Below, piece by piece: positions 7 through 23,385 of a DNA stretch of 64,000 nucleotides. The stretch's first letter is position 1. The number at the start of each line of letters is the position of its first letter. This DNA comes from Desulforegulaceae bacterium (lineage in GTDB: Bacteria; Desulfobacterota; Desulfobacteria; Desulfobacterales; JACKCP01), in contig JAVETN010000006.1 of the NCBI GenBank assembly GCA_034006035.1, positions 1-64,000 of the forward strand, read 5' to 3'. A program made the position numbers and the translations under genes. The notes beneath the pieces were generated by a model, which did no database searches, had not been told where the DNA came from, and was given only the letters and a program-made list of their open reading frames with translations.

Positions 7-2166
7 TTAGGTATCATTTTCTGACTCAATAAAATTGAAATATGAATTGTAATAATCTTTTATTTCCATTGCAGCATCAACTGCCATATTTACCGGAAGA
101 ACCGCACATACATCATCACCGCCTGCATAAATAAGTTTCCCTTTATATTTTTTTATTATTGAGGAAACTCCGTAAATTGAAAAATCTCCAAGTGATTCTG
201 AAATTGCAGCGTGAATTGATGGTGTTAAAAGTCTTTGTGGATGTTTATCAAAAATTTTATTCCAGTTTTCCTTGAAAAGCGGTAGAAAATTTTTATTTTC
301 AAGCCTTTGCTTTATAACAGGATGTAAAATTGACTGCCAGGTTGCATTTATTGTAGAGCCGTTTACAAGATTACCCATTTTATCTCCGTCCATGAGTAAA
401 ACTGCGTAGTATCTGTCTTTTATTTTCGGAGATTTCATTCCCTTTAGAGAATCTGAATCTGAGTCATGAAGCATTTGTGCAATGTCTTTTTTTTCAGAAT
501 CAGATTCAATATTATTTTTTTGAAAATAATTATACAGGCTCATTTCTGTTGTTGAAGGGTATGATTTTTGATTTTTAAAAGTTTTTGAAAGAACATGATT
601 ATTGTAGTCAGAATTTTCAAAAATCCTGTATAAAATTCTTTTTATCATGCAAAGAGAGCATAGTTTTTCATTTGTATTTTCTTTAAAATCAGGCTCTCTA
701 TTCCATTTTTTCTTAAAATCATGCCAAAATTCTTCAATATTTTCCTTATATTCAGAAGCCTTGATATCATTATTGTATTTTTTGCAGTGAAGAACTTCAA
801 ATTCTCTGCATTGATGACATTTTTCACCGGTTTCTTCTTTTCTTGAACTTGTTCTTATAGATTTTGATGCTGCAAGTGAAGACTGAACAAGGCTGTGTGA
901 AACAGAGTAGAGTAGTCCTGTTCCTGATTCATCGTAATGTTTGCCTTCAATAATTTTATTAAAAATTTCAACTACTTCTTTTTGATTTTTAAATAAAGGG
1001 TCAGGTAAAATTTTTGATACTTCACCAAGGTCATCTTTTGTAACAAGTTTTGTAGAAGACCATGAAAAGTCAAAATAATCATGGCATTGTCTTTCAAACA
1101 TTTCATGAATATGATTTATTTCATCTTCTGATATTAATGGAGTATTTTTAACCACAAGTTCTTCACACATGGTGCAGATTTTTATCCATTGATTTTTAAT
1201 ATGTGCCTTAATTTTATCAGTTATTTCCTCTGATTTTTCAAAGGGAAGAAGAAACAAAAACTTGTTTGGAAAAGATGCAATATCCCTGATGTTGTTCATT
1301 GAGTTTATGCCTCTTATGTCTTTTTCAATATCAAGATATTCGTTTATAAGAGGCTGATCTATAAGTGAAGGATATAAAATATGGTCAGGTCCCAAGTTTT
1401 CACAAACCCATTTAATTCCTTCAAAGGCAAGCCAGGATAGAATTATTGAACCTGTCCAGAAATCCCTGAGTTTTCTTGCATTTGAAATATAATCCTGAAC
1501 AGGGGTGATTGAAAAAACTGCCATTCCTGCTCCGTTAGGATCTTTGGCTAAGTCCATGCATGAATAAAGAGCAGATGTAAGAGCATTGTGCTGCCAGATA
1601 GAATGATCCGGAAATCTTGAATCAGCCGGAAGTCTGTGCCATAAGGCACCAAGTGATGCAGTATTTTCTTCTGCAAGAATAAATCTAAGGCAAAGATGAA
1701 TGTAAAAAAATCTGTTTTCTGCAAATTTTTCAGGGTTGCCTTTGAATAAATTTGAATAGCCTCCATCTTCTGGTTTAAGACCTATTTTATTTTTTATGAG
1801 TTTTATAAGGTCTCCTGAAATTTTTTCAGAAGCTTCATCCTGGCTCATGTTTTTATAAACATCAGGAAGTTCAATATTTATTTTTTTATCTGATACAGGA
1901 TGGGTAAGAACAGGATTTTTTAAAAAATCTACTGCACCGTTTTTATTTTCATCTTTGTCGTAAGAAGGAACCTGTCCTCTTTCAAATCCTGATGCCATTC
2001 CATCAGCTTTTTTCCAGAATTTTTCGTTTGGCTGCTGAAGTCCTAAAGCTTCAAGAATTTTTGCTGCTCTTGATTCATGTCCCTGAATTTTGAAAACCTT
2101 GTCAAAGGGGTCATGAAGATATGCTGATAATTTATTGTTCCAATAGGTTTCAGGGTTAGTTATCAT
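7..2166 (-). CDS. cmr2: Cas10/Cmr2, type III-B CRISPR polymerase-nuclease subunit, short C terminus
   Basis: Large subunit of a type III-B effector complex; the family makes cyclic oligoadenylate when crRNA binds target RNA and can cut DNA with an HD domain. The N terminus has the Cmr2-type HD segment (LHDPFDKVFKIQGHE, about residues 17-31). A typical Cmr2 block follows (SITPVQDYISNARKLRDFW, about 220-240). A zinc-binding region has paired cysteines (CHQC and CSLC). The cyclase motif is GGDD, so signalling should be intact. Its ATG overlaps the cmr1 stop by 11 nt, indicating coupled translation. Oddity: the stop codon comes only 34 residues after GGDD, whereas known Cmr2 proteins carry roughly 190 further residues (rest of palm 2 and the thumb-like D4 domain). 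The rest may be lost, or encoded separately beyond the window edge. Confidence 0.93.
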   Translation of the reverse strand: MITNPETYWNNKLSAYLHDPFDKVFKIQGHESRAAKILEALGLQQPNEKFWKKADGMASGFERGQVPSYDKDENKNGAVDFLKNPVLTHPVSDKKINIELPDVYKNMSQDEASEKISGDLIKLIKNKIGLKPEDGGYSNLFKGNPEKFAENRFFYIHLCLRFILAEENTASLGALWHRLPADSRFPDHSIWQHNALTSALYSCMDLAKDPNGAGMAVFSITPVQDYISNARKLRDFWTGSIILSWLAFEGIKWVCENLGPDHILYPSLIDQPLINEYLDIEKDIRGINSMNNIRDIASFPNKFLFLLPFEKSEEITDKIKAHIKNQWIKICTMCEELVVKNTPLISEDEINHIHEMFERQCHDYFDFSWSSTKLVTKDDLGEVSKILPDPLFKNQKEVVEIFNKIIEGKHYDESGTGLLYSVSHSLVQSSLAASKSIRTSSRKEETGEKCHQCREFEVLHCKKYNNDIKASEYKENIEEFWHDFKKKWNREPDFKENTNEKLCSLCMIKRILYRIFENSDYNNHVLSKTFKNQKSYPSTTEMSLYNYFQKNNIESDSEKKDIAQMLHDSDSDSLKGMKSPKIKDRYYAVLLMDGDKMGNLVNGSTINATWQSILHPVIKQRLENKNFLPLFKENWNKIFDKHPQRLLTPSIHAAISESLGDFSIYGVSSIIKKYKGKLIYAGGDDVCAVLPVNMAVDAAMEIKDYYNSYFNFIESENDT

Positions 2167-3145
2167 TTAGAGCCTCCTTGATGCTTTGTTCTTTAAGGCA
2201 TTTTGTTTTAATAATTTTATTCATATCATCATATACTTTCAGATATTTTTCTTTATCTTTTTGTCTGTAGTAATTGTAAGGTAAGTATAGAATCTGGCCT
2301 TGAAATTTATTGTCTTTGGTTTTTTTAACTTTTAAGAAATATGACTTTGAATGTCTCTCAGGGATATTTATTTCACCTTTCACAATAATTGGCTTTGCAG
2401 CTAAAGCACGTCTGTCAAAAAAATGTCTTTTTTCAAGGCTTGTTCTTGCTTCTCTATATGCAATTCCAATTTGAGATAGTGAATTGCTCCAGGAGTTTTC
2501 AGGTTGGAATTTAAATAGTTTTGCCTGATTTGAAAAAGAAGTAAAAGATTTTAATTTATCATCAATTTTATCTGTTATTTGTGATGAGCTTAAGCCTTTT
2601 ATATTAAGGGAACCAAAACCATTCCTTGATCTTGAACCAATTCCTCCAAATTTATTTAAAAGGAATAAAGAAGTCAAAATTTGTTTTTCGTATTTTTTTG
2701 AAAATTCTAAGTTTAAATTAAATTTTCCGTTTTCTTTTATATGTCCTTTGGTAAAAACATTGCCACTTCCTTTTTTATATTCGTAAAGGCCATAGGCTAA
2801 ATATTCAATAATACTTATGCTAAAAGATTTTCCTTTTGATGTTACAGAAATAGATGCACCTTTTGGAATATTGGCAATCTGGCTCTGAAAGCTTTTATCA
2901 GAAATAAAAATTTTTAAATCAGACTTATTGGAAGTGCTTCCAAAAATTTGAGATTCTTTTTCCTGCATTTCATCAAGATTATCACTGCCGAAAAAAGCCC
3001 TCCACCAGAAACGCAAAAGGCCGTTTAATGTTTGTTCTCTTAATTCAGCATGTTCTCCGTCAGCTCCCATTGCAAAGGCCGGAGTGAGAAATTCCACATC
3101 AAAAACTGATGTTTTTCTGTCAAGAATTTTTTCTGCAAAGTTCAT
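2156..3145 (-). CDS. cmr1: Cmr1, type III-B RAMP protein
   Basis: RAMP-superfamily subunit that caps the 3' end of the crRNA in the Cmr effector complex. The N terminus matches the Cmr1 signature: VEFLTPAFAMGADG followed by ELREQTLNGLLRFWWRAFFG (about residues 17-53), then QIFGST. The glycine-rich RAMP loop GIGSRSRNGFGSLNI lies near residue 185. At 329 residues it is within the usual range for the family. A good ribosome-binding site (GGGAGA) precedes the ATG. It lies between csx20 and cas10 in one leftward operon and overlaps cas10. The cmr1-cmr2 order is canonical, so cmr3-cmr6 would be expected just outside the window. Confidence 0.93.
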   Translation of the reverse strand: MNFAEKILDRKTSVFDVEFLTPAFAMGADGEHAELREQTLNGLLRFWWRAFFGSDNLDEMQEKESQIFGSTSNKSDLKIFISDKSFQSQIANIPKGASISVTSKGKSFSISIIEYLAYGLYEYKKGSGNVFTKGHIKENGKFNLNLEFSKKYEKQILTSLFLLNKFGGIGSRSRNGFGSLNIKGLSSSQITDKIDDKLKSFTSFSNQAKLFKFQPENSWSNSLSQIGIAYREARTSLEKRHFFDRRALAAKPIIVKGEINIPERHSKSYFLKVKKTKDNKFQGQILYLPYNYYRQKDKEKYLKVYDDMNKIIKTKCLKEQSIKEALNDN

Positions 3146-3180
3146 AATTTATTATCTCCCTGGTTTAAAGAGCTTTTGTT

Positions 3181-3582
3181 TTATTCAGCTTCATAAAACC
3201 TGAATTTAACGTGCTTAAATATTCTTGTTGTTTTTATTTGGTTTTCTTCTTTTATTTCTTTTTCAAGATTTCTTTTTGTAACCGAATAAATTGGCTTTCT
3301 TTTATTTTTTAAGCAAAAATTTACAATATTAAATAATGCACCTGATTCTCCCTGAACCCATATAAAATCTGACTCATTGGAATTTTTTAAAATCCATTTT
3401 TTAACAGGCTCAAGATAAAGCGAAATTTTATCCATAACAGGTGGAATATTTGACCACATTTCTTTAATTTTTAAATCAGCTTCAGTTTCTATTTTAGCGT
3501 TTAACTGCTTTTCAATATCTTCAAGCTGCTCTGGTGCTGGTATATGGTTTAATAAGATGAGTATTTTTTTTGTTTCTTTCAA
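3181..3582 (-). CDS. csx20: Csx20-family CRISPR-associated protein (possible ring nuclease)
   Basis: Small protein (133 aa) resembling the Csx20 family: an N-terminal LLNHIPAPEQLEDIEKQL stretch, then KEMWSNIPP, a central WVQGESGALFNIVNF segment and a C-terminal KHVKFRFYE. The Rossmann-like layout and its place between cas6 and cmr1 fit a CARF-related protein. Csx20 has been discussed together with Csx15 and Csx16 as cyclic-oligoadenylate-degrading ring nucleases; that role here is inference. Start codon is TTG, with AAGGA about 10 nt upstream, because no in-frame ATG fits. It would act as an off-switch for the Cas10-Cad1 signal. Confidence 0.75.
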   Translation of the reverse strand: MKETKKILILLNHIPAPEQLEDIEKQLNAKIETEADLKIKEMWSNIPPVMDKISLYLEPVKKWILKNSNESDFIWVQGESGALFNIVNFCLKNKRKPIYSVTKRNLEKEIKEENQIKTTRIFKHVKFRFYEAE

Positions 3583-3600: not shown

Positions 3601-4527
3601 TTATAAAATGCTGAACTCAAACCCTCCAAGCCCAAAAACAGTATTTTTACCAATATGAACCTTGGAGCAGGCCTCAATTAAAGGAACAAATTCAGTTAAA
3701 TTGCCACTATATGTAATGTCTCCCAAAAGACCGCCCATAAACATTTTTTTGTTTTGTCTGTTTGAGTATCTTTGCCAGTCTTTCCAGTAAAGGTTTGAAT
3801 TTTCAATTTTTATCTCAGATGCTTTTTTAATAAGTCCCTTATAATCAAGGTCCGGCTCGCCATTCCCATAAGTATTCATTAAAGATGAAATTCTTCTTAA
3901 CATGTTTCTTGTAAGCTCTTTAAAGTTAAGCTCAACTGGAAATTGTTTTCCAAAATTGACCCGCAAAGGCGTATTTAAAATAATTTTCAGTTTTGAACAC
4001 TCATATTTACCTGAGTCATTTGATAATTCAATTTGTTTTGATTTGTCTTCATGAACCATGGTGTTTTTTTTGCTGTCAAAAATTATTTCATTTTCAGTTG
4101 AAACTTTTTCAAGTAAAAATTTGCTTCTTTTTCCTTTTATTTTTTTCCCTATTCCCATTTTTCCCATATTTTGAAACGTAAGAACAAAGTAGGGGAGTTT
4201 TTCATTGGCAATTCCGAAAAGAATAATTTGGGTTTCAAGTTCATCACCGGGTTTGAAAAATCTTTGTTTTGTTTCAGGGGGAACAATTACAATGGGATGG
4301 GGATTTGCAGAAACATTGTGATTTAATTTATTATCTTTTTTTTCAAAAACAAAAGAGTAAAGACAATTTTCTTTTAAAATGCAATTTTCACAGGTTTGAA
4401 GCTTTAAGGCACAAACAGATTTTTTTAAAGCGTGCCCAAAAACACCTCTGAATGTTGAGCCTTTATACTCTGGAAGAATTGCATCATCTATAAATTTAAT
4501 GTAGAAGCTGTATTTTCCTGTTTTCAT
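3601..4527 (-). CDS. cas6: Cas6 pre-crRNA processing endoribonuclease
   Basis: RAMP-fold endonuclease that cuts the repeat RNA 8 nt upstream of each spacer. Features are the N-terminal EYKGSTFRGVFGHALKKSVC segment, a cysteine cluster (CALKLQTCENCILKENC, about residues 39-55) common in Cas6 proteins of this group, and the C-terminal glycine-rich loop VFGLGGFEFSIL. The 308 aa length is normal for this Cas6 type. It is the first gene of the interference operon cas6-csx20-cmr1-cmr2, separated from cas1-cas2 by an outer-membrane protein gene and a pseudogene. The array repeat ends ATTAAGAC on the minus strand, the 8-nt tag expected after Cas6 cleavage. Confidence 0.85.
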   Translation of the reverse strand: MKTGKYSFYIKFIDDAILPEYKGSTFRGVFGHALKKSVCALKLQTCENCILKENCLYSFVFEKKDNKLNHNVSANPHPIVIVPPETKQRFFKPGDELETQIILFGIANEKLPYFVLTFQNMGKMGIGKKIKGKRSKFLLEKVSTENEIIFDSKKNTMVHEDKSKQIELSNDSGKYECSKLKIILNTPLRVNFGKQFPVELNFKELTRNMLRRISSLMNTYGNGEPDLDYKGLIKKASEIKIENSNLYWKDWQRYSNRQNKKMFMGGLLGDITYSGNLTEFVPLIEACSKVHIGKNTVFGLGGFEFSIL

Positions 4528-5919: not shown

Positions 5920-6198
5920 TTAAACAACAACCCAGGGAGCCCGAACAGGCTCAGGCCCGATTCCGTCCTGTTTTATAAAAGTTCTGCAAGCCCTGCAAAG
6001 TGGATAATATCTTATAGAATCAGTATTATGATCAATTACTTCTGAAATATCAGAACGAAGCTTTTGAAGCTTATAATCACTTAAATTATAGGCTTCAAAT
6101 ACTGATTTCTGAACTCGGATAGAATATTTTTTAAGTATTTTAACAGCTCTATATCTTTTTTTATCATCAACTATGTCAAAACAAATAAGGTAAAACAT
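5920..6198 (-). CDS. cas2: Cas2 adaptation endoribonuclease-fold protein
   Basis: 92-residue Cas2 with the N-terminal beta-strand carrying the conserved aspartate (MFYLICFDIVDDKKR), the RVQKSVFEA segment and the SIRYYPLC strand. Cas2 forms the central dimer of the Cas1-Cas2 integrase that inserts new spacers. Its ATG directly follows the cas1 stop codon (TAAATG), so the two are translationally coupled. Two cysteines (CRAC, about residues 68-71) are not catalytic in the family. Confidence 0.95.
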   Translation of the reverse strand: MFYLICFDIVDDKKRYRAVKILKKYSIRVQKSVFEAYNLSDYKLQKLRSDISEVIDHNTDSIRYYPLCRACRTFIKQDGIGPEPVRAPWVVV

Positions 6199-7233
6199 TT
6201 ATCTTTTCCATTCAAAAGGCTTGTAAGTTGTTTTATTTTCAAGGGATTCAATAAATTGTGAAATTTGCCTTGAAATTATCTTTCTAATTTCTAGTTTTTT
6301 ATTTTCCGGTGGGTAAAAAAGTCCTGTATTCATCATATATTCGTATGATTCTATGAATTTATTTCTAAATTTAGGCTTCATTTCAACAGGACGATTTAAA
6401 ACCATATCTTTTTCATCTGAGTATGCGTCTTTTTTTTCTCTGAATACAAAATCATCTTTTTTAACTATTTTTCTGTTAACAAGCTCAAGCACAAATCTAT
6501 CTGCAACCGGGGCTCTATATTCTTCAACAAGATCGCAGGCAAGAGACGGTCTTGAATACAAAATTTCATGCAAAGATCCAAGATAAGGATCTAATCCCTT
6601 GATCTGGATAGCAGTTAAAACTTCAGATAAAAGGATTGTATAAATGTATGAAAGCATTGCGTTTATAGGATCAAGAGGAGGCCTTTTGCTTCTTTTTTTA
6701 AAATAAAAACCTTTATTTTTAATCATTTTTTTAAACATTCTGAAATATAATGCTGATGCTGCTCCTTCAAGTCCTCTTATTCTATCAAAAGAATCTGTAT
6801 AAACTGGTTTAAAACTTTTGAGAGCAAGTCCTGCTTCAGAAAGCTGTCTGTCCTTATAATCTCTTCCTCTTAAGGCCATGAGATTTGACATGTTTTTAAT
6901 TTTTCCGTTTACTGCAGCACAGGCAAATTTTTTTGAATAAACAGGATCAGACAACAAAAAATACTGTTTTTTTCTAAGTTCAACCTTTGAATTTTCATCT
7001 GTTGAAATTCTTGCACGAAATTTACCATTTCTTGTTAAAAATACAGTTTCAATTTTGTTATCAACCAAATAATCAAGAACAGCTGAAGTAAGAGACACTC
7101 CTTTGGCAAGGACAACTCTTTTTATATTGGAAGAAGGGATTGAATTTAAAACAGAGCCGTTTTTTACAATAGAAAGCTCGCCACCTTTTTTTCTTATAAA
7201 TGAGCCTGGCTCCATTATGTAGACTGATTCCAT
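6199..7233 (-). CDS. cas1: Cas1 spacer integrase
   Basis: 344-residue Cas1, the metal-dependent integrase of CRISPR adaptation. The catalytic residues are visible: Glu156 in RGLEGAASALYF, His222 in PYLGSLHE, and the acidic cluster Asp234/Glu237-238 in ACDLVEEYRAP. The N-terminal beta domain (YIMEPGSFIRKKGGEL) is typical. No reverse-transcriptase domain is fused. It follows the primase-polymerase gene with a one-base gap and precedes cas2, forming the adaptation operon TPR-CAPP-cas1-cas2. Confidence 0.97.
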   Translation of the reverse strand: MESVYIMEPGSFIRKKGGELSIVKNGSVLNSIPSSNIKRVVLAKGVSLTSAVLDYLVDNKIETVFLTRNGKFRARISTDENSKVELRKKQYFLLSDPVYSKKFACAAVNGKIKNMSNLMALRGRDYKDRQLSEAGLALKSFKPVYTDSFDRIRGLEGAASALYFRMFKKMIKNKGFYFKKRSKRPPLDPINAMLSYIYTILLSEVLTAIQIKGLDPYLGSLHEILYSRPSLACDLVEEYRAPVADRFVLELVNRKIVKKDDFVFREKKDAYSDEKDMVLNRPVEMKPKFRNKFIESYEYMMNTGLFYPPENKKLEIRKIISRQISQFIESLENKTTYKPFEWKR

Positions 7234-7234
7234 T

Positions 7235-8809
7235 TTATTTTATATACCTTTCAACTATTAAAATTGCAGTTTTAAGATTTTCAAGAGCCTGCTGAAGACT
7301 TTCAGTTTTTTCAGACCTTCCTTTAAATTGTTCAGGGGAAAATCCAAGATGGAGCAGGGGAGTAAGGTATTCTCCTGATTTTTCAAAATAGCAGTAACTT
7401 CCAGAATATTCGGTGATATTATGTATTCTTCTACAGCCAAGAGGAGTTCCTTTAAGCCTTGTAAGATACAAATCAACAAGTTTGTCATTATAATCAGGCA
7501 TTCTTTGAAACAAACTATGAACAAGCCTTCTTCCCTGGGGAAGAAAGCCAATTGTCTGGTAAATTATTTTTTCCTGGGTTCTTGAAATATTGTTTTTATT
7601 AAGACATTGAACAATAATTTGCCCTATTGGCGGACAAAGGTTTTTGAGGTTTACAATTTCAGGAAATTCAGAGTTTTTTTTTAAGGGAAAATCTTTAACT
7701 TCAGCTTTGGATTCTTTTATGTTTAAGTTTCCAATTTCCTGAGGTGAATATTTTTTCAAAAACTCAAGCTGACTTTGGGTTTCTCTTTTTTTGCACTCAG
7801 GGAAATAGGATTTTTTACCTGTTTTTTTATGAATTCCAAGGGGAAGTTTAACAAGGTTTCCCAAACCTTTTCCTGAAAGATAATCTTGTTTTGGAAATAC
7901 CTCTAAATTAAAATATGTTAAGTCATTTTTAATTTCACTGGTAATTGATTCAAGAAGTTTTTTTACAATTCCGGCTTTTGGTGAATTTTTAAAAAAATAC
8001 CAAAAATGATATCCTTTGCCTCCGCTGAATTCCAAAAGAGGATTAAGTCCATATTTTCCAGATATTTCTTTGATTCTTTTTACCATCCATTGAGATTCCT
8101 GATTTATTTTACCAATCAGTTTTCTTTTGTTTTGAGAACGAACTTCTTTTGTTAAGTCTATATCAATTACACCAAGATTTACTGAATTGTCTGAATTTAA
8201 AATATAAATACCAAGGCTTTCTCTTCCTGAAATATGGGATTCAATTTCATCTTCTGTAAGAATTTGTCTTACTGGAACATAGCCTTGCTGCTGCTTTTCT
8301 TTTGAATGCCATTGTCTTGCAAAAACGTCAGTTCTTCCTTTAAAAAGTGAGAAATAATATTTAATCAGCTCCTGATTTTTTCTTAAATTTTCCAAAGGAT
8401 AAAAACTTTGTTCAATTTCATTTGTTTTTTCCTCAATCTGAAAAAAAGCAGAGGTGGTTTTAAATCCGTTTTGTTTTGCAAGAGCTGTTATTTTTAAAAG
8501 CTTTTCCTTTTCATTTAAAATGGAAAGCATTTCAATATGATTTTCAAAAGCTGTAAAATTTTTTGGAAATTTGTTATGAGTAAAATTGTAAATTTTTTCT
8601 GCGGCATCAATACTGCAATTCATTCTTGCAAGCTCGCTCCATTTTATGAGCATTTCTTCATCAAGATCTGATAAAATGGAGTTATTTTTTAAAATTCTTT
8701 CAATTTCTTTTTTATCGCCCCCTTCAATAATTTTATTTTCCAATTTTTTGGAAAGAAGGGTGTAATCAGCATTTTTTAAAAGAATCTTTTTTGCATTAGT
8801 TGATGCCAT
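7235..8809 (-). CDS. CRISPR-associated primase-polymerase (CAPP)
   Basis: 524-residue protein of the archaeo-eukaryotic primase superfamily, of the kind described next to cas1-cas2 and implicated in adaptation. Catalytic motifs are complete: motif I GVIDIDLT (Asp216, Asp218), motif II SGGKGYH (262-268, His268), and motif III KLPLGIHKKTG (321-331). The first 140 residues are TPR-like helices. A C-terminal cysteine module (LCPPIGQIIVQC, then GCRRIHNITEYSGSYC) resembles the zinc/PriL-like module of TOTE-type primases. AAGGTGG precedes the ATG. It lies 10 nt after the TPR gene and 1 nt before cas1, so it probably makes or completes DNA substrates for Cas1-Cas2. Confidence 0.85.
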   Translation of the reverse strand: MASTNAKKILLKNADYTLLSKKLENKIIEGGDKKEIERILKNNSILSDLDEEMLIKWSELARMNCSIDAAEKIYNFTHNKFPKNFTAFENHIEMLSILNEKEKLLKITALAKQNGFKTTSAFFQIEEKTNEIEQSFYPLENLRKNQELIKYYFSLFKGRTDVFARQWHSKEKQQQGYVPVRQILTEDEIESHISGRESLGIYILNSDNSVNLGVIDIDLTKEVRSQNKRKLIGKINQESQWMVKRIKEISGKYGLNPLLEFSGGKGYHFWYFFKNSPKAGIVKKLLESITSEIKNDLTYFNLEVFPKQDYLSGKGLGNLVKLPLGIHKKTGKKSYFPECKKRETQSQLEFLKKYSPQEIGNLNIKESKAEVKDFPLKKNSEFPEIVNLKNLCPPIGQIIVQCLNKNNISRTQEKIIYQTIGFLPQGRRLVHSLFQRMPDYNDKLVDLYLTRLKGTPLGCRRIHNITEYSGSYCYFEKSGEYLTPLLHLGFSPEQFKGRSEKTESLQQALENLKTAILIVERYIK

Positions 8810-8819
8810 AATCCACCTT

Positions 8820-10154
8820 TTAACTTACAAGTGATGAAAATTTATCTTCAAGAACAGAAAGCTTTGAATATGCAGGATTAACTTCCTTAAGTTTTGCCAT
8901 TGCTCTTATTGCCTTGTCTGAATTTTTAAGCTTAAAGTGACATACTGCCTGAAGATAGATTGACTCAGCATTATTGTTATTCCAGGTCTTTTTTGAAAAG
9001 TTGTGTGCATCTATTGCAAATTCCAGTGCTTTTGAAAAATCACCTCGAAGATATCTTATTCTTGAAAGCTTTATCAAAGTTTTATGTCTTGATCTCATAT
9101 CTGATTCAATTTTGTCAGTTAAAAGCTCTTCAGCCTGATCAAACTTTCCAAGAGAAGATAAGATATCTGCTTTTGTCCATCTGCAATAAGGCTTCATATA
9201 ATTTGAATTTAAAAGATTTATTGTTTTAAGTCCTTTTTCAGCCTTATCAGAAAAAAAGTAAGTTCTTGCCAGAAGCTCAACTATATAATCTTGTTTTTTT
9301 TCAGAATATTCCATTGCAAGCTCAAGGCTTTTAATAGCTTTTTGATAATCTGAAATTGCAAAATAAATTTTCCCAAGGGCAAAGAATTTGTTTTGAGGTA
9401 AAAGATAATTTGTTTCATTATCGTATTCAATACACTTATTGAGATACAAAAGAGGCTGATTTGTTTTGCCTGATTTTAAAAGAACAGAAGCTAATTGATA
9501 AAGAGCTTTTATATAGTTTTTCTTTTCCTGATGTCTTTTTTCTTTTTCTTCATCTAAAAGATTTTCCCAGTTTTTTACAGCCGAAAAAAAATAGTTAATC
9601 GCTTTATCAGGTTTTCCTTCAAATTCTTTTACAAGCATTCCCATGCGGTAGAAATTTGTAATTGTGTCGGGTTTAATTGCTATTGCAGCCTGAAAATGTT
9701 TTTTTGCAAGTTCAATTCTTTCTTTTTTATGATTCCCCCTTAAAAAAACATCTTTGTTTTTTGCACTGTAAAGTGAATTGTATGCTGTATAAGCAAGATT
9801 ATGATGAAAGATAAATCTGTCAGGCTGTGAATTTAATGCTGTTTTAAGCTCAATGATTGCTTCATCAAACCTATTGAGTTGATTAAGAGCAAATGAAATT
9901 TTAGATCTTAAATCTGCTTCAAACTCTGTATTTGCAAATTCAGGAAGTTTTTCATTTAAAGGATGGAAAAGTTCAATTATTTCAATCCATTTATTGTTGA
10001 ATGAAAGTTCTGAAATTTGTCCTGAAATTCTTATTGAAGAATCTTTTAAACTTGACTGACTGATTTTTAAATCACTTAGTTTTACAAATTCATCTTCAAA
10101 AATTTCATTTGCAGGACTTAGAGATTCTGCTTTTTTGACAATTTTTGCACCCAT
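8820..10154 (-). CDS. TPR-repeat protein of the adaptation operon
   Basis: 444-residue protein made almost entirely of TPR helices (for example ALNQLNRFDEAIIELKTAL, YFAISDYQKAIKSLELAM, YLRGDFSKALEFAIDA). No catalytic domain, signal peptide or membrane segment is visible. A strong ribosome-binding site (AGGAGG) precedes the ATG. Its stop is 10 nt before the primase-polymerase gene, whose N terminus also carries TPR-like helices, so the two may interact. A scaffolding role in spacer acquisition is inference; the fold call is secure. Confidence 0.8.
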   Translation of the reverse strand: MGAKIVKKAESLSPANEIFEDEFVKLSDLKISQSSLKDSSIRISGQISELSFNNKWIEIIELFHPLNEKLPEFANTEFEADLRSKISFALNQLNRFDEAIIELKTALNSQPDRFIFHHNLAYTAYNSLYSAKNKDVFLRGNHKKERIELAKKHFQAAIAIKPDTITNFYRMGMLVKEFEGKPDKAINYFFSAVKNWENLLDEEKEKRHQEKKNYIKALYQLASVLLKSGKTNQPLLYLNKCIEYDNETNYLLPQNKFFALGKIYFAISDYQKAIKSLELAMEYSEKKQDYIVELLARTYFFSDKAEKGLKTINLLNSNYMKPYCRWTKADILSSLGKFDQAEELLTDKIESDMRSRHKTLIKLSRIRYLRGDFSKALEFAIDAHNFSKKTWNNNNAESIYLQAVCHFKLKNSDKAIRAMAKLKEVNPAYSKLSVLEDKFSSLVS

Positions 10155-10250: not shown

Positions 10251-10835
10251 TTATAACTTTAAAGCAAGACTTGACCAAAGTTCCATGTTCAGAGTTTTTA
10301 ACTCTGAAGTTTTAAAAAACTGAAAAGAATTCAGCTCTTCGCCTGGAATAAAACTTTTTATATCATCTGAAATTATTTTATAAACAATTCCCAAATGAAC
10401 TTTACCCACTTCAGTTACTTCTTCATTGATAATTCCGCAAAAAGAAATAGAATATTTTTTTGGTAGGCCTGTGATTTCCTCGGACAATTCTCTTTGCATT
10501 CCATTTTTGATTGTACTAAAAACTGACTTTGATTTGTCATTGGTATTTACATGTCCTCCAACTCCAGAGGACCATAAATCAGCAAGTCTTTTTTCGCTTC
10601 CTTTTCTTTTATAAATACCTGTAAGCGTTTTTTTAGAGTTCTGAATTAAAATATAGGGAATTATCTGTTTTAGATTAAAATTTTCTTCAGCCTTGCTTCT
10701 AGTTTCATATAAAACTTCAAAAGAATTTATTTTATTTTTAAATTCATCCTCCAGAATACTCAGGCTTAGATAATTTTTAATCCATTCCTTTGGAAGATTC
10801 TTTCTTTTTATGCACAACACTTTTTCACTATTCAT
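10251..10835 (-). CDS. Nudix hydrolase coupled to Cad1
   Basis: 194-residue Nudix-fold protein. The Nudix segment is GVGGHVN ... KNGMQRELSEEITG; the metal-binding RE..EE core is present, with a somewhat long spacing between GG and RE and one extra residue before the last glycine. I choose the ATG with AAGGTGA six bases upstream; this overlaps the cad1 stop by 8 nt, so translation is coupled. Nudix enzymes cleave nucleoside diphosphates linked to another group. Being tied to an enzyme family that converts ATP to ITP, it could act on inosine nucleotides, on cyclic or linear oligoadenylates, or limit toxicity; the substrate is not readable from sequence. Confidence 0.85.
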   Translation of the reverse strand: MNSEKVLCIKRKNLPKEWIKNYLSLSILEDEFKNKINSFEVLYETRSKAEENFNLKQIIPYILIQNSKKTLTGIYKRKGSEKRLADLWSSGVGGHVNTNDKSKSVFSTIKNGMQRELSEEITGLPKKYSISFCGIINEEVTEVGKVHLGIVYKIISDDIKSFIPGEELNSFQFFKTSELKTLNMELWSSLALKL

Positions 10836-12960
10836 TGAAATCACCTTTTAATATTAAATCTAAAATTTCATTTTCTGCATTTTTAATAAGTTTTGTTTTT
10901 GTTTGTCTATCAGCAAAGGCAGATTTAAAACCATTTCTTATTAGTATAAAAATTTCCCAAAGTGAAAGCCCGTTTTCTGTCATTTTTGCAGCTTTTAAAA
11001 ATTCATTTGTAAAATCAGTTTTAGAAATACCAGGATTGTCAGTGTTTATAGTTACTTTAAGACCTTTATCTAGATAAAATTTAAGGGGATAATCAGAATG
11101 ATTTTTTGTTTCATCCATTAAAAAATCTCTATAACCAACTATTTGAAAATTACTGGAAGGGCACATTTCAAGAGCAGTTCCAGAATTTAAAAATTTTTCC
11201 ATAAGAGAGCTATTGTCTTTTAAGGTAAGTCCATGTCCAATTCTTTCTGCACTTAAATGATATACTGCTTCCCAGATATTTTCTGCAGGCATGTTTTCAC
11301 CGGCATGAATTGTAAAATGCATACATTTTTCCATTAAAGGTAAAAAAGCTTCCCTTATTTCTGAAGGTTTTTTTGCTTTTTCATTTCCTGCCAAATCAAA
11401 GCCTTTTAAAATTGTATTTTCATCAGTTTCAGCAATACTTTTTGCAAGCTCGACATGGCTGTAAATTGTGCTCATTTTTCCGTGACGGCTTCCAATAAAA
11501 ATAATTCCTGCTTCAATGTTTTTTAATTTATTTAATTCATTTTCTATTGTTTTATATACCAAAAGAGGACTCATTCCTCCTCTGGTATAATTGTGGGGTG
11601 AACATCTTAATTCCAAATATTTTATATTATGAAAATTTGCTTTTCTTTTTAAAATTTCACAGGTTTTTTGTAATGTTTTTTCATGTTGCAAAAGCCCTGA
11701 ACCCTGCAAATCTCCAATTTTTTCATAAGGAGAAAAACCTTTTCCACAGAAATTGCTTTCGTATTTTAGATCAGAATAAATAAAATCTTCCAAAAGCTCA
11801 GGATGATCTTTAAAAAGAAGAATAAAATTTGCAGTTATAAAAGGTTCAGGAATATTGTTTAAAGCTGTTCTTATTTTTTTGGGAATATAGGTTTTTCTTA
11901 ACTTAACAATTTCTTTTGATTTTATAAGCTTTTTTGCTTTTTCAAAAAAGGAGTCCAGAACTTTTTTGTAAAAAAGAAGTTCTGTTTCTAATTCTTTTGC
12001 AATTTCAATAAGTTCAAAAGCATCTGCAACACCTCCTAAGTGACAGTGAAGTTCTGTTTTAGGAAGTTTTTTTAAAAGATTATAATCTTTTTTTAAATTC
12101 TTTTTATTAATTCCAATTTTATAATTTTTCAAAAAACCTATAAGTTCAGGAGGCAAGGTATAAAGTGCAAGAAAGTTTGTTTGATTTTCTCCCTGAATAA
12201 GCTTTGAACTATAATTAAAAACAAGATTGGTTGCATTTTTCTTTCTTTTTTCAATTTCATCAATTAAATAATTTTTATCATCAAATTCTACAAAAACAGG
12301 ATCTGAATTTTCTGGATATTTTATAAAAAAATCTTTGGATTTTATTATAGGGTCTATTTCTAAAAGTATGTTTTTTTGGTATTGGCCTGTAATTACAGGA
12401 GTGAAAGCATTGGAAAAAGGCTTAACCAGAGGTGAAAGAAAAAAATCTGTGTTTTTATCTTTTAAACTTTTAGCAATTTCAAAATTATCAAGAATATGAA
12501 TCATTGCTTTGCATCCAAAAAAAGATGCTGAATTCTGCAAATCAGAACTCATGGTTTTTCTTCCTCCTGTAAGAGAAAGAAAAAGACTTTTGTCTTTTGT
12601 TTTTTCATAGGCAAGAAGGGTGATTCTGTGAATTGTTTCTGCCATTTGTCTGAATTCATATTCTGAAGTCAGATCATCGGCATTTTTTACAAGCCAGATT
12701 TTAAGTCCAGGCTTATTTTTACTTAATTTATCATACCACTCAACAATTGTTTTTAATGAATTAAGAGTTTTTTGCCCACCTGTACCAACCATCCAGATTT
12801 CATTGATGTTTTTTATATTATGTTTTTTTCTTTTTTCTTCAATTTCTAAAATATCTTTATGATTTTTATAAAGATTTATTGTTTCAGGGTTTGTAAAGCC
12901 TATGATTTCAGGGATTATCTGCCATGAAATTCCAAAAGTTGTTAGTAAAATATTTGTCAT
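10828..12960 (-). CDS. cad1: Cad1: CARF domain fused to adenosine deaminase, type III CRISPR effector
   Basis: 710-residue fusion. Residues 1-200 form a CARF domain of the Csm6/NE0113 type: start NILLTTFGISWQ and the ligand-loop motif SLTGGRKTMS (129-138). Residues 298-700 are an adenosine-deaminase domain with all metal and catalytic positions: HCH (His305, His307), HAGE (His552, Glu555), GHG (575-577) and TDNP (Asp641). In the characterised Cad1 family, cyclic oligoadenylate binding switches on deamination of ATP to ITP, which arrests growth of the infected cell. It is the first cas gene downstream of the array and overlaps the Nudix gene. The family assignment is firm; the preferred ring size of the activator cannot be read. 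Confidence 0.9.
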   Translation of the reverse strand: MTNILLTTFGISWQIIPEIIGFTNPETINLYKNHKDILEIEEKRKKHNIKNINEIWMVGTGGQKTLNSLKTIVEWYDKLSKNKPGLKIWLVKNADDLTSEYEFRQMAETIHRITLLAYEKTKDKSLFLSLTGGRKTMSSDLQNSASFFGCKAMIHILDNFEIAKSLKDKNTDFFLSPLVKPFSNAFTPVITGQYQKNILLEIDPIIKSKDFFIKYPENSDPVFVEFDDKNYLIDEIEKRKKNATNLVFNYSSKLIQGENQTNFLALYTLPPELIGFLKNYKIGINKKNLKKDYNLLKKLPKTELHCHLGGVADAFELIEIAKELETELLFYKKVLDSFFEKAKKLIKSKEIVKLRKTYIPKKIRTALNNIPEPFITANFILLFKDHPELLEDFIYSDLKYESNFCGKGFSPYEKIGDLQGSGLLQHEKTLQKTCEILKRKANFHNIKYLELRCSPHNYTRGGMSPLLVYKTIENELNKLKNIEAGIIFIGSRHGKMSTIYSHVELAKSIAETDENTILKGFDLAGNEKAKKPSEIREAFLPLMEKCMHFTIHAGENMPAENIWEAVYHLSAERIGHGLTLKDNSSLMEKFLNSGTALEMCPSSNFQIVGYRDFLMDETKNHSDYPLKFYLDKGLKVTINTDNPGISKTDFTNEFLKAAKMTENGLSLWEIFILIRNGFKSAFADRQTKTKLIKNAENEILDLILKGDFNE

Positions 12961-13291: not shown

Positions 13292-14634
13292 GTCTTTTTA
13301 ATCCTCTCGAAGCGAGGCTAATTTCTGACCTGAAGTAAAACCTGAAGTAAAAACAAAGTTACGCAAAGTCTTAATCCTCTCGAAGCGAGGCTAATTTCTG
13401 ACCCTCGTTGGCAGAAGGTAGTGCAGAGTGTTTTCTCAGAGTCTTAATCCTCTCGAAGCGAGGCTAATTTCTGACTCGCCTCATTGGCAGAAGGCCACTC
13501 TGAGGTCTACCGTCTTAATCCTCTCGAAGCGAGGCTAATTTCTGACTTAAATGAAGCTGAGGCAACTCCTCTTGAGGCAAGAAAGTCTTAATCCTCTCGA
13601 AGCGAGGCTAATTTCTGACTACACCTACGAAATCCAGGAGTGTAAGGGTGTTAGAATGTCTTAATCCTCTCGAAGCGAGGCTAATTTCTGACTAAGCTCG
13701 CCGAGAAATTAATGTCAGTGGAAGGCAAGGTCTTAATCCTCTCGAAGCGAGGCTAATTTCTGACGCTGAAATGCGTGTTTGCACGTGTGAAGTGACAAAA
13801 AGTCTTAATCCTCTCGAAGCGAGGCTAATTTCTGACCTCTCGGAGATTTACACCTCTACAAGCTGCCAACCAGTTCGGGTCTTAATCCTCTCGAAGCGAG
13901 GCTAATTTCTGACCAGTCTGCTCCCTAATCAAGAAGAAATTCTTAACTCCGTCTTAATCCTCTCGAAGCGAGGCTAATTTCTGACTTAATGTCAGTGGAA
14001 GGCAAGAAGCTTCCAGCTGACGTGTCTTAATCCTCTCGAAGCGAGGCTAATTTCTGACACTTGTTGAAGCTAAACCTATGGCTATCGAGACTGTAGTCTT
14101 AATCCTCTCGAAGCGAGGCTAATTTCTGACAGAAGCTATGTGGGTAGATACTAACGATAAAGGAGCTGTCTTAATCCTCTCGAAGCGAGGCTAATTTCTG
14201 ACTATACTGGACAAAAAATAGAAAAAATATTCAATAAAGTCTTAATCCTCTCGAAGCGAGGCTAATTTCTGACTCAATCCTTGTTGCATTAAACCTTGAA
14301 AAGGTTGAAAAGTCTTAATCCTCTCGAAGCGAGGCTAATTTCTGACTTAATGGCTGGAAGGAGCAAAAGATTTAAAGATGAAGTCTTAATCCTCTCGAAG
14401 CGAGGCTAATTTCTGACAAAAAATCGAATTAAAAAACAAACATTTTAACAACTCAGTCTTAATCCTCTCGAAGCGAGGCTAATTTCTGACAAAAAAAAGA
14501 TTACAAAATCAGAAAAACGAGAATTGTCTTAATCCTCTCGAAGCGAGGCTAATTTCTGACTACGAAAGACCTGCCTGTAGCTATAGCTGATGTATCCTAG
14601 TCTTAATCCTCTCGAAGCGAGGCTAATTTCTGAC
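13292..14634 (-). CRISPR. CRISPR array, 19 repeats of 35 bp and 18 spacers
   Basis: Repeats start GTCTTAATCC and end TTTCTGAC on the plus strand, with an internal CTCG-AAG-CGAG hairpin. Eighteen copies appear identical. The leftmost (13292-13329) is 38 bp because three extra T residues follow GTCTT. Spacers are 35-42 bp, most 36-38 (the longest, 42 bp, is at 13837-13878). On the minus strand each repeat ends ATTAAGAC, a typical type III 5' crRNA tag, so I read transcription as leftward, with the leader on the right and the degenerate repeat at the old end. Spacer order from the left is S1 (13330-13367) to S18 (14561-14599). Confidence 0.98.
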
Positions 14635-14957
14635 TCCTGCCTTTTGTATAGCTTTATTCATGCGGGTTTTCAAGGCCAAAATGAGACATCCCCTCAAATT
14701 TTAGCCTCCGTGTAGTTTTTACCCACCTTGAATTTCTCATAAAATCAGTTAAGGTGCTGAAATAATTAAACAAAGATTACTCCTCTGTGGATTTTGGTTG
14801 CTGTGTAAGCTAATGTATTGATTTTATTGTATATATCGAATTTAAGACCAAAATAATTTTAACATCCAAAATCCACCTCATATCTTTTTATATAACCACT
14901 TGAAATTAAAGACTTTTATTTGAGAGATTTTCAATATTCAATTGTCACAGAGCAAAA
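14635..14957 (-). promoter_or_regulatory. CRISPR leader region
   Basis: 323 bp of non-coding sequence between the newest repeat and the 3' end of the Lon-like gene. Orientation of the repeat (ATTAAGAC tag on the minus strand) and the degenerate repeat at the far end place the leader and array promoter here. I see no further gene; an exact promoter could not be assigned with confidence. Confidence 0.7.
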
Positions 14958-17075
14958 TTACCTATAGGAAAAAGGAAAAAATTTTTCTTTATCTTCCCTT
15001 ATATTTTTTAAAATTTCAATTGTTTTTTTCTTTGTAAATAAAATGGAAAAATGGGAATGGGAAAGTTTTAAAGCTGATTTTTTTATTGTTTCAAAAACTT
15101 CATCAGCCCATGAATTTAAATCTTCTAAAAGAACTAATTCAGATAAAGGAAGCAAGGCCATTACTCTAATTGAATCGCCGTTTACTTCGTCCAGACAGAT
15201 TTTAAGACTTTTTTTTAACAGGTTTTTTGAATCATCTGATTTTTCAAGCATTAGACCAATTAGCCCCAGATTAAAAAACCAGAGCTGGGAAGGATGATAT
15301 TTGTTTATATTTTCAGGATGGGAGTTTTTATATTTATCAAAATAGAATTTTTGGTATTGAATAGAATTTTTGATATCAATATTTTTGTTTCTTGAAAGAA
15401 AGCTTGCACACAAAAAATGTCCCCATTGGTCAAATTCTTTATTTACAGCTTCTGAAATACTGGAAGAATTGGAATATTTTAAAAAGTATTTCTCAGCCTG
15501 ATTAAAATCCCCAGCATCAAGATAGGCAAAGCAAAGATAATTGAATTGTCTTTTTATATCATCCCTGAACTTTGAATTTTTAAGATTGGTTTCTCCTCCA
15601 AAATATTTTATTGCTTTTAAGGCAAATTCTTTTGTTTTATGAATATAATCTTTTCCGCAAAATCCATAGTTTTGTGCAATTGTTCCGCATAAAGCTGCAA
15701 TTGTATCATCTGCTGCTTCAGGGATAAACTCACATTCCTCATGAAATCTTTTTTCCAGGATGTTTAAAAAATTCTTTATTGTAATCGGAATTTCTGGGTT
15801 GAAAATATATTTATCATGATTTGAATTTACAAGGCAGTGGTTGGTAAACCAGATAAAAGCATTTCTTCCTTTTCTTGTTTTCACAGCATTATTAATAAAT
15901 TTTTTAGAAATTTCTATCCATTTGTTTTCCTGGGAAGGAATTCCTTTTCTTGAAAAAACAAGGGAAGCAGAAGAAGAAAACAAAAAAAGTAAATCAAAAA
16001 AAGGTGATTTTGAAAAAATTTTAAAATTGTTTTCAATTAAAGAAATTATTAATAATGCTTTTTCAAGGTCAGTGTTTGAACTTTTAATAAAATTTTTAAT
16101 AAAACCTGAAAAAAGAGTTTCATTAAAAACTATATTTTCAACCAGGGATGTTTCTTCTGTTTTTTTTAAAACAGCTTTTAAAATATTTACAGGAACTGAA
16201 TAAAGATAGGATGACAAAGCTTCAGCCGGAAATAAAATAAATTTAAAATATTCTTTTAAAAATCCTTTTTGAGAAGCCAAGGCCAGAGTTTTTTTAGCTT
16301 CTTTTATATCTGTGGAAGGAAGGGTTTTTAAATCTTTAGAAAGATTTTTATTTTCATAATAATTAATTGAAGGAACTATAAAAAACTTAAAGTTTTTATT
16401 TAAAATAAATTCCTTTTTTTTATTTAAATCCATTGTGTTTTGAGTTTTGCCTTCATCATCCAATACAGATGAAAAAATCAAATCATTTGGGTATAATTTG
16501 TTGTTTTCAATGGAAAAAAATCCTAGATAAAAAGATAAAGAAGCTGATTTGCCACCTAACTCAAGATTGGAATTGTATTTCAAACCTTCTATAAAAAAAG
16601 ATTTTTTTGAATTTAAAAGTTTAAATGAATTTAAAACTGAATCTTTAAATTCCTTACTGCTATTATTTTTTATAAAATCTCCAAATATTATGTTTTTTTC
16701 TGATTCTATTTCAGAAATAAAAAAATAAATTAAATCAATTTGATTTTCATTTAAAAAAACACAGGGAATAAAAGTGTTTTTATCTAAAAACTTGAAATTA
16801 AATGAAAAAGTATTGCAAAAATAAATATTTGCAAACTCAAATGATTTAAGTTTATTTGTGTTTAATGATTCAAATAAAATATGATTTATAAAAAGGATGG
16901 TAAGATTTTTATCAAACTCTAATTTTTTTATATATTTTTTAAAAATTTCTTCATTGAAATCTAGATCAATGATTTTGAAAAAAGGATCTTCAAGAAAATT
17001 GATAAGAGTAGTTGCTCTTGATCTTGATTTAAGACAAAAATCTATTTTTTTAAGATTTAAATTATCTCTTATCAA
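14958..17075 (-). CDS. Lon-like (S16) peptidase-domain protein with TPR-like helices
   Basis: 705-residue protein that I do not recognise as a whole. Residues about 160-237 resemble the proteolytic domain of Lon, especially the LonB type: LELGGKSASLSFYLGF aligns with the GDSAS active-site strand (candidate nucleophile Ser177), LYPNDLIFSSVLDDEGKTQ with the DVAMTGE..RG segment, and DLNKKKEFIL..KFFIVP with the catalytic-lysine helix (Lys219-221). The motif aspartate is replaced by Lys176. Residues 1-150 are unassigned. Residues 270-700 are helical with TPR-like units (YLDAGDFNQAEKYFLKYSN). There is no AAA domain and no CARF or SAVED domain that I can identify. The start is TTG, overlapping the anti-sigma stop (TTGA). 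Context suggests it cleaves the adjacent anti-sigma-like protein. Confidence 0.6.
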   Translation of the reverse strand: MIRDNLNLKKIDFCLKSRSRATTLINFLEDPFFKIIDLDFNEEIFKKYIKKLEFDKNLTILFINHILFESLNTNKLKSFEFANIYFCNTFSFNFKFLDKNTFIPCVFLNENQIDLIYFFISEIESEKNIIFGDFIKNNSSKEFKDSVLNSFKLLNSKKSFFIEGLKYNSNLELGGKSASLSFYLGFFSIENNKLYPNDLIFSSVLDDEGKTQNTMDLNKKKEFILNKNFKFFIVPSINYYENKNLSKDLKTLPSTDIKEAKKTLALASQKGFLKEYFKFILFPAEALSSYLYSVPVNILKAVLKKTEETSLVENIVFNETLFSGFIKNFIKSSNTDLEKALLIISLIENNFKIFSKSPFFDLLFLFSSSASLVFSRKGIPSQENKWIEISKKFINNAVKTRKGRNAFIWFTNHCLVNSNHDKYIFNPEIPITIKNFLNILEKRFHEECEFIPEAADDTIAALCGTIAQNYGFCGKDYIHKTKEFALKAIKYFGGETNLKNSKFRDDIKRQFNYLCFAYLDAGDFNQAEKYFLKYSNSSSISEAVNKEFDQWGHFLCASFLSRNKNIDIKNSIQYQKFYFDKYKNSHPENINKYHPSQLWFFNLGLIGLMLEKSDDSKNLLKKSLKICLDEVNGDSIRVMALLPLSELVLLEDLNSWADEVFETIKKSALKLSHSHFSILFTKKKTIEILKNIREDKEKFFPFSYR

Positions 17076-18163
17076 TTTGTATCAGTCCTGTACCAATTAA
17101 AAAACCAGATATTTTTTCCTTTTGAAAACTGAAATCTTGCTTCAAATACATTGGTTTCTTCATCAAAATCTGAAAAGATTGATTCTATTGTTTTTCCTGA
17201 GTTTGTCTGGAAAAGGGCATGGCTCCCTGAATAAACAAAATCTTTATTATCTGGCTCTGCTGTTCCAGTAATTATTAGGTTTTCATTTTCTATGAAATTA
17301 TCTTCCAGATTTGCGTTTTGAAGTAAAATGTTTTTAATTTCTTCATTTTCAACTATTACAGAATAAAAATAAAAATTTATTTTTTCACTTCCTGCATGAA
17401 CAATTGTTGGATTAAAATAAGTTGCCAATTCTTTTAAAAGCAGCTCAGGATTATTAATCAGATTGTCTTTTAAATAGATTTCATTGGAAATAAGTTTTTT
17501 TGCTTTTGTTTTAAGGGCTTTTGCAAGTATAAATGCCGGTGATGAGGTAAATTGTGAAGCACAAAACTTTTCTATCTTCCTAAAAACTTTAACTTCTTCC
17601 ATGTTTTTATTTTTAAATCTGCTTTTTGACCAGATAGGAGGAGTTTCTGAATTGAAAAACAAATCTATATCAGTTTTAAAATCACTTAAATCACAAATAA
17701 AATTTGAAATAAGAGTTTTGTGAATTTTAATTTTGTTCCAGCCCTCAATTATAAAGGGTATAAAATCTGAAATTAAATCTGGAATAAAAAGGTCTTTTTC
17801 AGAAAAAATTTCTGTAATTGGAGAAACTAAAAAACATTCAAAAAAATCATCTTTTATTTTATCAAGATAAACTAAAGGAGGAACAAGATAGAAATTGTTT
17901 TTCCATTTCCCAAGCTCGCTTTTTAAAGAGGCAATTTCCCCGGGCTTGGGCTGGTAAATTTCAATTTCAGATTTAAAACTTTCTGCAAGATCAAAAAACG
18001 GATCAGGGGTTTTGTTTTTACACAAAGGACATGTTTTAAAATGGTTTAACACCTTTTCTTTAAAATAAGGATCCCTTATGGTTTGTTCATCTGGACACAA
18101 CCTGAGTGAGACGGCTTCTTTAAGATATTTGTTTTTATTTATTTTATTATAGTCAATTTTCAT
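17072..18163 (-). CDS. Putative zinc-binding anti-sigma factor (ZAS-like motif)
   Basis: 363-residue protein. The N terminus carries LCPDEQT (about residues 22-28) and HFKTCPLC (about 42-49), an exact H-x3-C-x2-C motif preceded by an upstream cysteine, as in zinc-binding anti-sigma (ZAS/HC2) domains. The remaining 300 residues are unrecognised, with no obvious transmembrane segment, so it would be a soluble anti-sigma. It lies directly downstream of a sigma-like gene and overlaps the Lon-like peptidase gene by 4 nt, the arrangement of a sigma / anti-sigma / protease module. Its start codon follows an 18-bp repeat present three times, the last copy supplying the GGAA ribosome-binding sequence. 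The function is inferred from motif and context. Confidence 0.6.
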   Translation of the reverse strand: MKIDYNKINKNKYLKEAVSLRLCPDEQTIRDPYFKEKVLNHFKTCPLCKNKTPDPFFDLAESFKSEIEIYQPKPGEIASLKSELGKWKNNFYLVPPLVYLDKIKDDFFECFLVSPITEIFSEKDLFIPDLISDFIPFIIEGWNKIKIHKTLISNFICDLSDFKTDIDLFFNSETPPIWSKSRFKNKNMEEVKVFRKIEKFCASQFTSSPAFILAKALKTKAKKLISNEIYLKDNLINNPELLLKELATYFNPTIVHAGSEKINFYFYSVIVENEEIKNILLQNANLEDNFIENENLIITGTAEPDNKDFVYSGSHALFQTNSGKTIESIFSDFDEETNVFEARFQFSKGKNIWFFNWYRTDTN

Positions 18164-18170
18164 ATTATTT

Positions 18171-18224
18171 TTCCGGTTTATTTTATTTTTCCGGTTTATT
18201 TTATTTTTCCGGTTTATTTTATTT
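18171..18224 (-). repeat. 18-bp direct repeat, three perfect copies, upstream of anti-sigma gene
   Basis: Units at 18171-18188, 18189-18206 and 18207-18224, reading TTCCGGTTTATTTTATTT on the plus strand. On the coding strand each copy holds CCGGAA, and the copy next to the gene places GGAA about 10 nt before the ATG. Copies are identical, so they could slip, act as an iterated operator, or provide repeated ribosome entry sites. Confidence 0.95.
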
Positions 18225-18256
18225 AACGGCTTTTTTTTGTTAATTTTTAAAATAAG

Positions 18257-21786: not shown

Positions 21787-21871
21787 TGGTGCCGAAGAGA
21801 GGACTCGAACCTCCACGACTCGCGCCACCAGGTTCTAAGCCTGGCGTGTCTACCAATTCCACCACTTCGGC
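21787..21871 (-). tRNA. tRNA-Leu(UAG)
   Basis: 85-nt tRNA including encoded CCA. The acceptor stem GCCGAAG pairs with CTTCGGC; the anticodon loop CTTAGAA gives anticodon UAG; a long variable arm and GGTTCGAGTCC T-arm identify a leucine tRNA. It is identical to the plus-strand copy at 23301-23385 but inverted. Confidence 0.97.
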
Positions 21872-23300: not shown

Positions 23301-23385
23301 GCCGAAGTGGTGGAATTGGTAGACACGCCAGGCTTAGAACCTGGTGGCGCGAGTCGTGGAGGTTCGAGTCCTCTCTTCGGCACCA
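23301..23385 (+). tRNA. tRNA-Leu(UAG), second identical copy
   Basis: 85 nt including CCA; same sequence as 21787-21871 on the other strand. The anticodon loop CTTAGAA gives UAG, decoding CUA leucine codons. The two copies form a perfect inverted repeat about 1.4 kb apart. Confidence 0.97.

Follow-up and report, generated by a model that had tools for sequence, protein, structure and literature searches.

Spacer strand polarity in a type III-B CRISPR array beside a CAPP adaptation module in a Desulforegulaceae bacterium

Described systems and the locus

A coding-strand bias of type III spacers has already been published, and strand bias itself was to be expected: in part of Vink et al. 2021 (PMC8482600), the coding-strand share of spacers averages 65% across type III and reaches 88% in the Moraxella type III-B system. 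In the RT-Cas1 type III-B system of Marinomonas, RNA-derived spacers favour the antisense orientation only marginally, according to sections of PMC5576922. A preference for hairpins during adaptation in the type III-A system of S. thermophilus was found by Zhang et al. 2021, as summarized in a portion of the review PMC9048733. Sections of PMC8211822 describe CRISPR-associated primase-polymerases (CAPPs) as binding Cas1-Cas2 and priming on DNA; synthesis begins with a ribonucleotide, and RNA serves them poorly as a template. Activation of a Cad1-like effector by cyclic oligoadenylate is treated in part of PMC11645235.

The window analysed here is a stretch of 64,000 nucleotides from a Desulforegulaceae bacterium (contig JAVETN010000006.1). 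It contains a CRISPR array (array 1) and the following genes and elements:

7..2166, minus strand: Cas10/Cmr2 with a GGDD motif, cut by the contig start (TIGR02577, 206.9 bits, cut-off 79.4)
2156..3145, minus strand: Cmr1 (RAMP), by profile match
3181..3582, minus strand: Csx20
3601..4527, minus strand: Cas6
5920..6198, minus strand: Cas2
6199..7233, minus strand: Cas1 of 344 aa, a Cas1 domain alone, without a reverse transcriptase domain
7235..8809, minus strand: CAPP, adjoining cas1 (PDLC01101, E=1e-94; AEP-TOTE, E=1e-43)
8820..10154, minus strand: TPR protein, part of the CAPP adaptation module
10251..10844, minus strand: Nudix-box-like protein, motif recognized by eye and no library match, overlapping the Cad1-like gene
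10828..12960, minus strand: CARF-adenosine deaminase, a Cad1-like effector
13295..14634, minus strand: type III-B CRISPR array 1, 19 repeats of 35 nt and 18 spacers of 35-42 nt
13295..13329, minus strand: degenerate terminal repeat with 2 mismatches, at the trailer end of array 1
13330..14599, plus strand: the 18 spacers and intervening repeats, with the plus strand as target strand (58.7% purine, coding-like in 15/18)
14635..14957, minus strand: leader of array 1, about 323 nt, sharing 77% identity with the array 2 flank on contig C25

The presence of Cas10/Cmr2 and Cmr1 assigns the system to type III-B, and an AEP primase-polymerase lies beside cas1 and cas2, as defines a CAPP module. Because the contig begins inside Cas10, it does not carry the remainder of the Cmr operon; Cmr3-6 would lie beyond its start. 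The RT-Cas1 adaptation class is defined by a reverse transcriptase fused to Cas1, which this locus lacks, and an RT-Cas1 model gave no match in the same genome at E 1e-120. The Nudix-box-like protein possibly handles nucleotides made by the deaminase.

Three minus-strand genes lie beside the leader (14958-19168) and gave no Pfam, NCBIfam or PADLOC match at E 0.001. By eye, the middle of the 705-aa protein resembles a Lon-type protease, while the 363-aa protein has an N-terminal Cys-rich motif like that of zinc anti-sigma factors and the end of the 303-aa protein is like a sigma factor. Together the genes may be reminiscent of a CalpL-CalpT-CalpS arrangement. Further along the window are two tRNA genes of equal score and opposite orientation (21790-21871, minus strand; 23301-23382, plus strand), with a 1.4-kb stretch between them.

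Transcription and strand polarity of array 1

A second array with the same repeat was found in the same genome (array 2, C6:158728-159216 and C25:1-1938; 32 spacers, 30 unique), its two parts probably being one array split by assembly. By eye, a CARF-like gene on the minus strand seems to adjoin the array 2 leader (L013, ~2270-3500, contig C25), and a TTTTTCCATGCTCTG-like unit is present in tandem just before the array 2 trailer (L009, ~6590-6690, contig C6).

Homology between the array 1 leader and the array 2 flank, together with the degenerate repeat at 13295, places the leader at the high-coordinate end, indicating that array 1 is read from the minus strand; the opposite, low-coordinate flanks of the two arrays bear no resemblance to each other. 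In guide-strand form the repeat is GTCAGAAATTAGCCTCGCTTCGAGAGGATTAAGAC, which ends in GAGGATTAAGAC, similar to the GGGGATTGAGAC of relatives' repeats. These three features agree with the minus-strand transcription proposed in the original prediction. The span given there, 13330-14599, coincides with the spacers, beginning at the first base of spacer 1 and ending at the last base of spacer 18. No convincing promoter was located for array 1. Transcription from the plus strand, which would make the crRNAs mRNA-like, is scarcely credible given the position of the leader, and nothing of weight speaks for it: two plus-strand promoter-like matches precede the low-coordinate end, and the number of such matches in the region is close to the shuffle mean. 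With array 1 read from the minus strand, its crRNAs would be the complement of the plus-strand spacers, would carry the 5' tag ATTAAGAC and would be antisense to mRNA.

The purine content of the plus strand, counted by hand in the original prediction, was reproduced exactly (396 of 675 bases, 58.7%, across 18 spacers), with 14 spacers above 50% purine and four below. This excess was above chance, as had been proposed; random turning of each spacer reached it in 0.11% of trials (sign-flip p=0.0011). The prediction had also drawn on open reading frames. The peptides that it quoted are present in the spacer translations and a stop-free plus frame does exist in 18/18 spacers, but a stop-free minus frame exists in 18/18 as well (27 plus and 29 minus frames in all), so that open frames are void as evidence for the coding strand. 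Codon usage in 23 window genes served to train a codon model, which correctly called 79.5% of sense 37-mers drawn from genes of the window. The model reflects host usage, from which phage codon usage may differ; it scored 15/18 spacers as plus-coding (p=0.0002) and the remaining 3/18 as minus-coding. From spacer composition, the plus strand of the array 1 spacers thus resembles sense mRNA.

Replication, type I controls and related spacers

In array 2, the 30 unique spacers were 54.5% purine on the target strand, with 22 purine-rich and 7 purine-poor (p=0.005), and the codon model preferred the target strand in 20/30 (p=0.003). For the two type III arrays of this genome, the codon model gives a sense fraction of (35/48 - 0.205)/(0.795 - 0.205) = ~0.89.

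A search for CAPP across 395 genomes gave a match in 44. Going by the names of its CAPP relatives, the genome studied here apparently falls within or near the Desulfobacterales. Relatives were sampled as 20 stretches around CAPP genes and five named loci, among which 10/25 had arrays with clearly homologous repeats; these were turned to the target strand by repeat homology. The ten related loci contained 302 spacers, 204 purine-rich and 89 purine-poor on the target strand, and the codon model preferred that strand in 187/302. With three arrays completed and the own genome included, 551 unique type III spacers were obtained (355 purine-rich, 167 purine-poor), spacers within one genome not being independent. 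Two arrays found later showed the same pattern (30 purine-rich, 10 purine-poor; p=0.0004). RT-Cas1 arrays, considered as a third group, comprised only 13 spacers in three arrays, and one low-complexity false array (L154) was discarded. Bias showed no trend with spacer age (purine-rich against purine-poor, 150 vs 66 in newer halves and 130 vs 76 in older halves). There was no bias among the ten newest spacers of genome G370 (5 vs 5) or G247 (5 vs 4), numbers that are very small.

The type I controls showed no such polarity. A type I-C set from the same phylum, with arrays in 17/20 stretches, contained 887 spacers without bias (425 purine-rich, 398 purine-poor). A clean internal control is provided by the type I-B system of the same genome, which has a Cas1 of its own and an array of 68 spacers (contig C1; L015 10840-16361, L085 1556-6519); the 67 unique spacers of this array (C1:105455-110418) divided 33 to 33. 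Type III spacers differed significantly from type I-C spacers (Fisher, p=3e-9), as did the type III spacers of this genome from its own type I-B spacers (p=0.006). The proposal that guides pair with mRNA is therefore supported by a sense-like plus strand that recurs in independent arrays and is not seen in type I controls.

Protospacers were sought for both the window and C25 arrays in phages, for the window array in plasmids, for part of the G370 array in phages and plasmids, for parts of the G247 array in phages, and by six pattern scans of viral contigs. None was found, one of the searches giving chance-level matches (E 1 or more). Within its own genome the window array matched array copies and two weak sites (E 8e-4 and 0.005), and among 39 genomes of the order there were single matches in four relatives, one of which (G010, E 1e-4) may reflect repeat similarity. 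As these searches yielded no protospacer, we infer the coding strands and do not read them from real targets.

Several spacers overlap or are homologous to one another, as in array 1:

13403..13511, plus strand: spacers 2 and 3, SLAEGSAEC and SLAEGHSEV, alike by eye and under the homology score cut-off
13693..13729, plus strand: spacer 6, KLAEKLMSVEGK, with a 21-nt same-strand overlap with spacer 10 and an array-2 homologue, LREEGDKLAEKL
13914..13950, plus strand: spacer 9, SLLPNQEEIL, homologous to array-2 spacer C25:346-379, SLLPSQEEVL
13986..14023, plus strand: spacer 10, LMSVEGKKLPAD, whose reading frame runs on from spacer 6

Spacers 2 and 3 apparently represent the same gene in two elements. 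Across six type III arrays, 37/39 clusters of overlapping or homologous spacers lay on a single strand, which gives a cluster-based sense fraction of 0.97 with a lower bound of 0.90. Type I-C clusters also mostly keep to one strand (10/12), possibly owing to a fixed PAM, so the cluster measure is supporting rather than decisive and does not by itself separate the types. Synonymous changes between homologous spacers favoured the target strand in clear cases; spacer 9 and its homologue differ by 8 mismatches, which change two residues when read on the target strand and five on the other. In G370, four spacers were read by eye as one coding site (LIMNPKTGFRVR, IMEPGSGFRI, LVLDPGAGIRV and LILDPGAG).

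An alternative is that the purine excess is an artefact of composition or an effect of the replication strand, unrelated to mRNA sense. Purine skew can track replication, and replication is left open as a cause of strand bias in part of Vink et al. (PMC8482600). However, the codon model agrees with the purine polarity, in clear cases fewer residues change between homologous spacers when these are read on the target strand, and the type I-B array of the same host stands at 50.0%, which makes this explanation very improbable.

At the 5' end of the target strand, A is frequent as the third base (G247, 108/237; G010, 32/56; G370, 63/163; own genome, 22/48), and G247 spacers seldom have G as the second base (20/237). 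These 5' base preferences are perhaps an acquisition motif.

Hairpin spacers, origin of the polarity and comparison with described systems

Spacers were classed as hairpin spacers when 99% of their dinucleotide shuffles folded less strongly. Such spacers were more frequent in CAPP type III arrays (51/551) than in type I-C arrays (26/887; p=4e-7), also after removal of G370, the richest genome (30/388; p=3e-4). The type III arrays of the own genome contained 6/48 and its type I-B array 2/67, the latter counted with five repeat bases still included in each spacer. Of the hairpins followed by a T-run, five lay on the target strand and one on the opposite strand. Hairpins hugging spacer ends were considered as a sign of trimming and rejected, the controls being alike. 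Several spacers of the G370 array (L072/L082) are whole intrinsic terminators with very similar stems, and many spacers of this array overlap, as if the terminators were present in many copies in one phage. A literature search of titles and abstracts, with subscription journals mostly outside its coverage, returned no paper on how rich natural CAPP arrays are in hairpins.

Array 1 is very probably an RNA-sensing type III-B array with a CAPP module, transcribed from the minus strand and with its spacers oriented so that crRNAs are antisense to mobile-element mRNA. The spacer pieces would derive from genes of invaders (phages or mobile elements), and the crRNAs would pair with invader transcripts, as in ordinary type III-B immunity; Cas10 would then make cyclic oligoadenylate, activating the Cad1-like effector. 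Polarity would follow from the need for antisense guides: Cas10-Cmr complexes presumably bind only transcripts, and spacers of opposite orientation would be useless and not retained. Selection after acquisition is enough to explain the polarity. A contribution of the acquisition step or of the CAPP module is nevertheless possible, because retention for guide function by itself would not favour the hairpin enrichment of CAPP arrays: self-complementarity should weaken the binding of a guide to its target. This gives some weight to acquisition. The hairpin excess may indicate structured RNA or displaced single-stranded DNA as a spacer source.

In its full form, this alternative holds that polarity is set at acquisition, with Cas1-Cas2-CAPP drawing on folded nucleic acid exposed by transcription (either mRNA or single-stranded DNA of the displaced coding strand) and inserting it with a memory of its strand; the mark may be the ribonucleotide at which CAPP begins a strand. 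It agrees with the hairpin excess over type I-C, with or without G370, and with staggered spacers taken repeatedly from one site; the T-run hairpins point the same way, although their count is just 5 vs 1. It also agrees with priming on single-stranded DNA, initiation with a ribonucleotide and binding of Cas1-Cas2 by CAPP (sections of PMC8211822), and with the preference of S. thermophilus III-A adaptation for hairpins and the encoding strand (portion of PMC9048733). On the other hand, CAPP copies RNA poorly (same sections of PMC8211822) and the module lacks a reverse transcriptase; in S. thermophilus, uptake from the encoding strand adds nothing directly to defence, being of the opposite polarity (PMC9048733, same portion); and selection alone can yield the same result. 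We therefore hold setting of the polarity at acquisition to be a tentative possibility. By analogy with homologues, the CAPP properties would fit a displaced single-stranded DNA source better than RNA. Unlikely, in our estimation, is the more specific model in which CAPP type III modules pick hairpin prespacers on the transcribed strand (terminators and hairpins within coding sequence) and preserve strand identity during integration, acquisition itself thus yielding functional antisense guides with no need of a reverse transcriptase.

For the preferred reading, an RNA-sensing array with antisense guides, the closest comparison is with Vink et al. 2021 (PMC8482600), and the tendency of type III guides to pair with mRNA, as given in part of that study, is common to both. 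Their values come from mapped protospacers, whereas the fraction of about 0.9 or more obtained here is an indirect estimate made without protospacers. Polarity can thus be read from spacers alone, given several arrays and type I controls. Less expected than strand bias is the hairpin enrichment in CAPP-array spacers, which is a lead on the role of CAPP: prespacers may come from folded single strands, perhaps with strand identity kept. The locus shares with described CAPP adaptation modules (sections of PMC8211822) a type III-B setting in which CAPP neighbours cas1 and cas2, along with a TPR gene; in the text of that paper covered by a term search, neither 'strand bias' nor 'hairpin' occurs and no spacer content of CAPP arrays is given. 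With the S. thermophilus III-A system, as covered in a portion of the review PMC9048733, it shares an excess of hairpin-forming sources and a dependence on the transcription strand. There, however, the spacers are newly acquired and uptake is from the encoding strand, whereas the spacers described here are from natural CAPP arrays and would yield antisense guides. The Marinomonas RT-Cas1 system is likewise of type III-B, and its spacers must also be antisense to work (sections of PMC5576922). In contrast to the marginal preference there, the bias described here is strong and accompanies a module without reverse transcriptase, and it bears on how such type III systems obtain a useful spacer orientation.
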